A DNA stretch of 5,084 nt from an uncultured Eubacteriales bacterium. GTDB lineage: Bacteria > Bacillota_A > Clostridia > Oscillospirales > Oscillospiraceae. Positions 3,610-4,479 of this stretch are shown here, one piece after another (within the stretch, counting starts at the first letter, position 1; every line of letters begins with the position of its first letter). The stretch lies in NCBI GenBank assembly GCA_900556015.1, contig USNH01000099.1:1-5084 (forward strand). Direction: 5' to 3'. The notes beneath the pieces are model-generated. The model searched no databases. It was not told where the DNA came from and saw only the letters and a program-made list of their open reading frames with translations. The position numbers and the translations under genes are program-made.

Positions 3610-4479
3610 ATGGAAGAACCGAGATTTAAGCGGGTGCTGCTGAAGATCAGCGGCGAAGCCCTGGCCGGCGACAAGCACTTCGGCCTTGACTTCCAGGTCA
3701 TGGGCCGGGTGGCGGATGTCATCAAGGAGTGCGTGGCCATGGGCGTCCAGGTGGGCGTGGTCATCGGCGGCGGCAACTTTTGGCGCGGTGTAAAGGATGG
3801 CGAGGGCCACATCGAGCGCACCCGCGCCGACCACATGGGTATGCTGGCCACCGCCATGAACTGCATGGCCATGGCCGACGTGCTGGAGCAGAAGGGCGTG
3901 GACGTCCGGGTCCAGACGGCGCTGGAGATCAAAGAGGTGGCGGAGCCCTACATCCGGGCCCGTGCCGTCCGGCACCTGGAAAAGGGCCGGGTGGTGATCT
4001 TCGGCTGCGGCGTTGGCTGCCCCTTCTTCTCCACGGATACCGCCGCCGTGCTTCGCGCCGCGCGCGATGAATCGACCCGTGCTGACTGCGGCGCAATTTT
4101 GCAGTACATCCAGCAGAACTACCGTACCGTGCGCCTGAGCACGCTGGCGAGAGCGTTCCATTATAACGAGACCTATCTCTCCCGTATGCTGCAGAATTAC
4201 ATGGGCATGAGCTTTACGGAGATCGTCCGCGGCATCAAGATGACCCGCGCCGAGGAATACCTCTCGACCTCCACGCTCCGCATCCATGATATCTCCGCGC
4301 TCGTCGGCTACGACAGCGTGGATCACTTCTCCCGCACGTTCAAGTCTACGCACAATATGTCGCCGCAGGCCTACCGCCGTCTCACGACGAAGCGCGGGCT
4401 GCGCACGCTCGCTGCCTCGGCCGTGAAGGGCGAGAGTGCGGAAAAGAACGCGAAGACGGAGAAGGCGAAGAACGAATAA
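3610..4479 (+). CDS. pyrH: Chimeric ORF: N-terminal UMP kinase joined in frame to AraC-type DNA-binding domain
   Basis: This is one open frame of 289 residues. Residues 1-151 are the first part of bacterial UMP kinase (PyrH), the amino-acid-kinase-fold enzyme that makes UDP from UMP and ATP. Visible motifs are KISGEAL (12-18), [10 protein letters not shown] (51-60), [12 protein letters not shown] (73-84) and [15 protein letters not shown] (132-146). The rest of the kinase, including the usual LLAKNVDGVY-type segment and C-terminal nucleotide-binding part (a full enzyme is about 240 residues), is absent. From about residue 152 the sequence is an AraC/XylS-family DNA-binding domain. The ATG start has GGGAGG seven bases upstream and belongs to the pyrH part. 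A functional UMP kinase is not expected, and pyrH is normally essential. No frr (ribosome recycling factor), its usual downstream neighbour, is present. The chimera is best explained by a join of unrelated sequence near 4060; the open frame across it may be chance. Confidence 0.85.
4045..4070. other. Sequence junction inside pyrH
   Basis: Similarity to UMP kinase stops after LRAA (residues 148-151, bases 4051-4062), where the family continues with an acidic, hydrophobic strand. The next residues, [10 protein letters not shown], lead into AraC sequence. The local bases are a run of GC-rich repeats (CGCGCCGCGCGCG), which could serve as microhomology. By hand count, bases 3901-3960 contain 41 G/C of 60 and bases 4141-4200 contain 30 of 60. 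The arginine codon CGG is 6 of 12 before the join and 0 of 14 after it. The precise breakpoint is uncertain by about a dozen bases. Confidence 0.75.
4063..4479 (+). pseudogene. AraC-family transcriptional regulator, C-terminal fragment
   Basis: The last 138 residues of the chimeric frame hold a complete AraC-type double helix-turn-helix domain at about residues 163-258 of the ORF. The first HTH runs [21 protein letters not shown] (175-195). The second contains [21 protein letters not shown] (225-245) and is followed by the family signature MSPQAYRR (250-257). Such domains bind promoter DNA; the N-terminal ligand-sensing domain that normally precedes them is missing here, replaced by UMP kinase sequence. 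No ribosome binding site or plausible start precedes it after the junction, so by itself it is a fragment. The tail (about 260-289) is Lys/Ala/Glu-rich and probably disordered. In its source genome it was probably the end of a normal AraC gene, since a strong terminator follows immediately. Its regulon and effector are unknown; the adjacent convergent esterase gene is a possible but unproven target. Confidence 0.8.

Follow-up and report, generated by a model that had tools for sequence, protein, structure and literature searches.

A pyrH–AraC fusion gene on an Oscillospiraceae-type metagenome contig is very probably an artificial chimera

A single reading frame from UMP kinase into an AraC domain

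Is a gene that begins as a UMP kinase and ends as an AraC-type DNA-binding domain a new protein, or are two ordinary genes wrongly joined? In the window (the whole 5,084-nucleotide stretch of DNA that we analysed), the ORF list gives a single open frame at 3610-4479 on the forward strand, encoding 289 amino acids and uninterrupted across the join, as the original prediction had stated. The kinase half, predicted to be conserved up to residue 151 and then cut, does end there: the Pfam AA_kinase domain covers residues 7-151 and reaches only position 162 of its 234-position profile, and the NCBIfam UMP kinase model TIGR02075 is matched over positions 2-147 of 233 with 188.9 bits, below its cut-off of 243.9. 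Beyond the break lies the complete AraC double helix-turn-helix (HTH) that had been expected (HTH_18, PF12833, residues 179-257, profile positions 1-79 of 80, 74.6 bits). We assign 3610-4044 (+) to the 5' part of an Oscillospiraceae-type pyrH, the UMP kinase gene, whose 3' part is absent, 4045-4062 (+) to the join, and 4063-4479 (+) to the 3' part of an AraC-family regulator gene that retains the double HTH and the tail and lacks the N-terminal domain. A hairpin followed by a T-run at 4496-4530 (+), read off the sequence, is the probable terminator of the AraC gene, and an ORF at 4569-5084 (-), cut by the window end and matching no Pfam or NCBIfam family, presumably shares its source with the AraC part. 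The predicted fused protein lacks the C-terminal third of the kinase, which we take to be part of the ATP-site half, and also the AraC sensor domain, and no function is to be assigned to it.

The base composition of the two halves differs as predicted: GC content is 0.65 for codons 1-144 of pyrH, against 0.59 for the AraC part. The predicted contrast in arginine codon use is likewise present (CGC/CGG 3/6 in pyrH versus 9/0 in AraC, Fisher p = 0.009), but its value as a clean species marker did not hold up: because CGC also predominates in the antisigma, ECF and dusB genes of the window (30/12, no different from the AraC part plus ORF 4569-5084, p = 0.31), we rejected arginine codon use as a strong marker and regard it as a weak one. 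With codon log-odds trained on ORF 4569-5084, which is short, pyrH scored -10.4 and AraC only +1.3, a result that we did not take as proof. Neither a tRNA nor an RNA family at the gathering score was found, and a 51-base pattern spanning the join had no match in IMG/VR.

Intact parents of the two halves

Searching the halves separately, as the original prediction had suggested, led from the kinase part to Oscillospiraceae-type pyrH and from the AraC part to an intact regulator. On the left, residues 1-151 show at most 93% amino acid identity to Oscillospiraceae-type PyrH among the best 80 of 163 relatives, and the DNA at 2577-4062 is only about 66-88% identical to that of the best relatives, so the exact species is not among them. 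The C-terminal half of pyrH is present in 44 of the 45 Oscillospiraceae-type pyrH loci (L001-L045) and frr in 43; in the two loci with a missing part (L019 and L023) the contig ends soon after the match. Neither the AraC gene nor ORF 4569-5084 occurs in any of these 45 loci. A metallo-beta-lactamase-fold (MBL-fold) gene at 2577-3476 (-), recognized by Lactamase_B, ties this part of the window to the pyrH side, since it also adjoins pyrH in all eight relatives' loci examined, six of which had been chosen for DNA already matching there. Residues 1-151 are thus the N-terminal part of a normal bacterial UMP kinase PyrH (TIGR02075) of the Oscillospiraceae type with its usual MBL-fold neighbour, but the C-terminal third is missing and the window runs from pyrH into AraC instead of frr. 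pyrH is normally essential and single-copy.

On the right, a protein search with the AraC part returned P0122, an intact AraC protein of 405 residues from a cluster of 3,357 sequences, which spans 100% of the AraC part (all 138 residues) at 99% identity. Residues 145-289 of the fused protein correspond to the C-terminal part of this regulator, with one residue different from P0122; unlike P0122, the window lacks the 260 N-terminal residues and carries PyrH in their place. The AraC proteins P0122, P0124 and P0144 all possess their own N-terminal domain, which is absent from the window copy; P0144, whose contig is up to 57,378 bp long, has the N-terminal part and the peptide AAVLRAA intact and a frame-shifted C-terminal end. 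Both kinds of parent therefore exist intact, P0122 for AraC and complete pyrH in the relatives, and the exact parent species are not among them.

We also looked for the intact AraC gene in genomes, using partial samples, E-value limits of 1e-20 to 1e-50, and at most four candidates scored and shown per genome (order by protein, class and phylum) or two (order by DNA). Among the matches listed, nothing exceeded 31% identity in the order of a left-side relative (394 genomes by DNA and 394 by protein), in a sample of its class (391 genomes), in 47 left-side relatives (drawn from 44 of the 45 loci and six further ones), in a phylum sample (388) and one family sample (57), or in IMG/VR, plasmids and phages. 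A peptide scan of GTDB r220 returned no close AraC relative among the best 80 of 163 loci, despite the 3,357 members of the P0122 cluster; we would expect any close relative that contained these peptides to come within those 80, and for a cluster of this size the absence is unexplained. The AraC gene of the P0122 cluster may be an accessory gene.

The shared word and the position of the switch

The break is preceded by the heptapeptide AAVLRAA, which is native to the intact AraC protein P0122, where it occupies positions 261-267. It is native to PyrH as well, being present in 102 of the 120 listed matches of the fused protein. Among 21 proteins of the AraC group that we compared, AAVLRAA is found in the five closest to the window, and the rest have mostly ASVLRSG or close variants; judging from these proteins, one AraC subgroup seems to match PyrH here by coincidence. 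The GC-rich repeat that had been proposed to bridge the break was borne out in so far as the two genes have a short word in common, but the window itself has no such repeat: no direct or inverted repeats of at least 10 bases were found in 3900-4250.

The native bases of the AraC gene could be approached through P0242, whose sequence looks like that of the same gene after a frame shift. Four solutions satisfy the demand that a single DNA sequence yield the P0122-type as well as the P0242 reading, and they have 34 of 36 bases in common. The window has every fixed base of this reconstruction in 4045-4071 and differs from it at 4037, 4038, 4040, 4041 and 4044, so that in 4036-4044 it mismatches the inferred AraC bases at 5 of 9 positions. 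On the pyrH side, the pyrH of locus L031 is identical to the window over 4036-4052, and of the shared word the first 12 bases occur as DNA in four of the pyrH loci compared and the first 14 in none. At the position of 4063, the pyrH loci have the G that starts a glutamate codon (a base that the search pattern itself required), versus C in the window and in AraC. From the base agreement beginning at 4045 and the difference at 4063, we infer that the switch probably took place within 4045-4062, a placement that depends on the P0242 allele. With the inferred AraC allele, the two genes have a word of no more than 18 bases in common, and other bases at 4041 and 4044 in the window's strain may lengthen it to about 21-22. 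Common assemblers start from 21-mers, longer than an 18-base word.

Origin of the fusion and its alternatives

We conclude that the fused gene is very probably an artificial chimera of two ordinary genes from different gut bacteria, the explanation that had been thought likeliest at the outset and that is favoured by the intact parents, the shared break peptide, and the recurrence of this AraC gene and this kind of pyrH in other chimera-like proteins. In this explanation, the left side would be an ordinary Oscillospiraceae-type pyrH and the right side the 3' end of an AraC gene that has its own N-terminal sensor domain in another bacterium. Both genes would encode AAVLRAA in the same frame by chance, and an assembler would have used the shared word to cross between the two genomes during metagenome assembly, which we regard as a likelier origin of the join than library PCR. 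With the shared word in one and the same frame in both genes, the reading frame would survive the join. PMC7299287 describes how shared k-mers give rise to chimeric contigs in short-read metagenome assemblies; the present case resembles them in that two genomes are joined through a short shared word, and differs in that the join keeps the reading frame.

Support for the chimera comes from the appearance of the same AraC gene in joins to a ribosome recycling factor (RRF) and to an aldolase, and from the pyrH loci of relatives, which are intact except at contig ends. In P0123, an RRF is joined to the AraC gene at ELVK, a place at which relatives' RRFs have RRRELVKQ or RRKELVKQ, and in P0154 a class II aldolase is joined to it at EIVRGIK, where the nearest solved aldolase (5u4n) reads EEIVEGIK; in both, the join peptide resembles the partner family, and the exact RRF and aldolase partners are not among the sequences found. 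P0145 departs from AraC at KRGLRT. It passes from the AraC piece through another piece, which we take to resemble alcohol dehydrogenase, into the frame seen downstream of AraC in the window (4494 onward), and looks like a double chimera.

Similar behaviour is seen on the kinase side among the listed pyrH matches. P0004, P0011, P0030 and P0055 switch from pyrH to other sequence a few residues past AAVLRAA, P0025 leaves pyrH for an RRF inside this peptide, P0007 appears frame-shifted past it, and P0003 is an internal rearrangement of pyrH. Further matches, for example P0009, P0010 and P0016, combine the N-part of this pyrH with a C-part that resembles those of other bacteria and are indistinguishable from ordinary divergence. 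An N-part at least 90% identical to P0006 together with a C-part less than 65% identical occurs in 35 of 117 listed matches (the 120 minus three without the F[FY]STD motif), a proportion that we do not use as a rate, the list having been picked by likeness to the query and partly reflecting ordinary divergence. P0006 may itself be switched, as P0005 and P0008 have its N-part and only 60% and 64% identity to its C-part. P0002, a PyrH of 318 residues on a 35,552-bp contig, has an internal duplication of about 80 residues, perhaps an assembly error or a real tandem duplication.

Counting against the chimera are the brevity of the shared word, the absence of its first 14 bases from the pyrH loci compared, the failure to find intact AraC DNA in the genomes searched, and P0001, which has the same join, as an inherited fusion would. 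P0001 is a protein of 286 residues from a 3,664-bp contig in ENA, in a cluster of two sequences of which one is possibly the window's own, and among the 120 listed matches (8,000 scored) it alone covers the whole fused protein. The original prediction had named the fusion's occurrence in independent isolate genomes as evidence against an artefact; no such genome was found, P0001 being the one further fusion protein. Compared with the window, P0001 has five differences in the first 43 residues of the pyrH side; its AraC part is the same except for residue 286 and an end that comes three residues sooner. At residue 286, P0001 agrees with P0121 and P0123 and the window with P0122; P0123 ends early just as P0001 does, and at residue 248 the window agrees with P0001 and differs from P0122. 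The case for two separate joining events is thus a modest one. Repeated joining at one shared word would explain P0001 well on the residues compared, and a real fusion that changed afterwards has a small probability.

A PCR or library chimera, in which template switching at the shared word would have made the join, is one form of the artificial chimera and is counted within it, and we consider it unlikely. A word of at most 18 bases could serve template switching and is short for a 21-mer graph, but a single library molecule would seldom be deep enough to be assembled, and the same join occurs in two proteins. Real recombination within one bacterium, in which the short shared word served to attach a foreign AraC fragment to pyrH while an intact pyrH copy persisted elsewhere, would account for a join in the shared word, as expected of microhomology recombination, and for the nearly identical AraC part behind the same join in P0001. 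It is nevertheless very improbable, given that the window holds no second copy of the essential kinase gene, that the same AraC gene appears in the unrelated chimera-like proteins P0123 and P0154, and that none of the relatives' 45 pyrH loci has the AraC gene. We give hardly any weight to the notion that short-word recombination made the fusion real in some gut Oscillospiraceae, with two slightly different proteins and possibly a role as a nucleotide-sensing regulator. A functional kinase-regulator fusion, with the UMP-binding half of PyrH as a sensor controlling the AraC DNA-binding domain, is scarcely credible despite the open frame, the complete HTH_18 and the two proteins that carry it, because the kinase part does not stop at a natural domain edge, the intact parents have the same residues at the break and P0001 is the only listed match to cover the whole; a literature search for a UMP kinase (pyrH)-AraC fusion protein listed nothing relevant.

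Read as an artificial chimera, the fusion is almost certainly neither a real feature nor a new protein. Protein databases built from metagenome contigs can contain in-frame false fusions that pose as new domain architectures, and the same false fusion can recur, so recurrence alone is no proof that a fusion is real. Two cheap checks need no reads: whether the intact downstream parent has the same residues before the break, and whether a frame-shifted copy yields the native bases.

A possible second seam

A dispersed intergenic repeat lies at 2476-2551 of the window and is present in 3 of 12 relatives' genomes (at three places each in two of them and at one in the third). It separates the queT-antisigma-ECF-dusB block from the MBL-pyrH block, which are found together in none of 17 relatives' loci; in one relative (G131), both are on the same contig with about 550 kb between them. 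The position may be a second false join, or this may be the true order in an unsampled species. Arginine codon use is split between MBL plus pyrH (2577-4041, CGC/CGG 3/23) and the antisigma, ECF and dusB genes (p = 1e-6), and in three relatives that we checked the counts in MBL and pyrH were less one-sided. The codon split hints at a seam near 2500.
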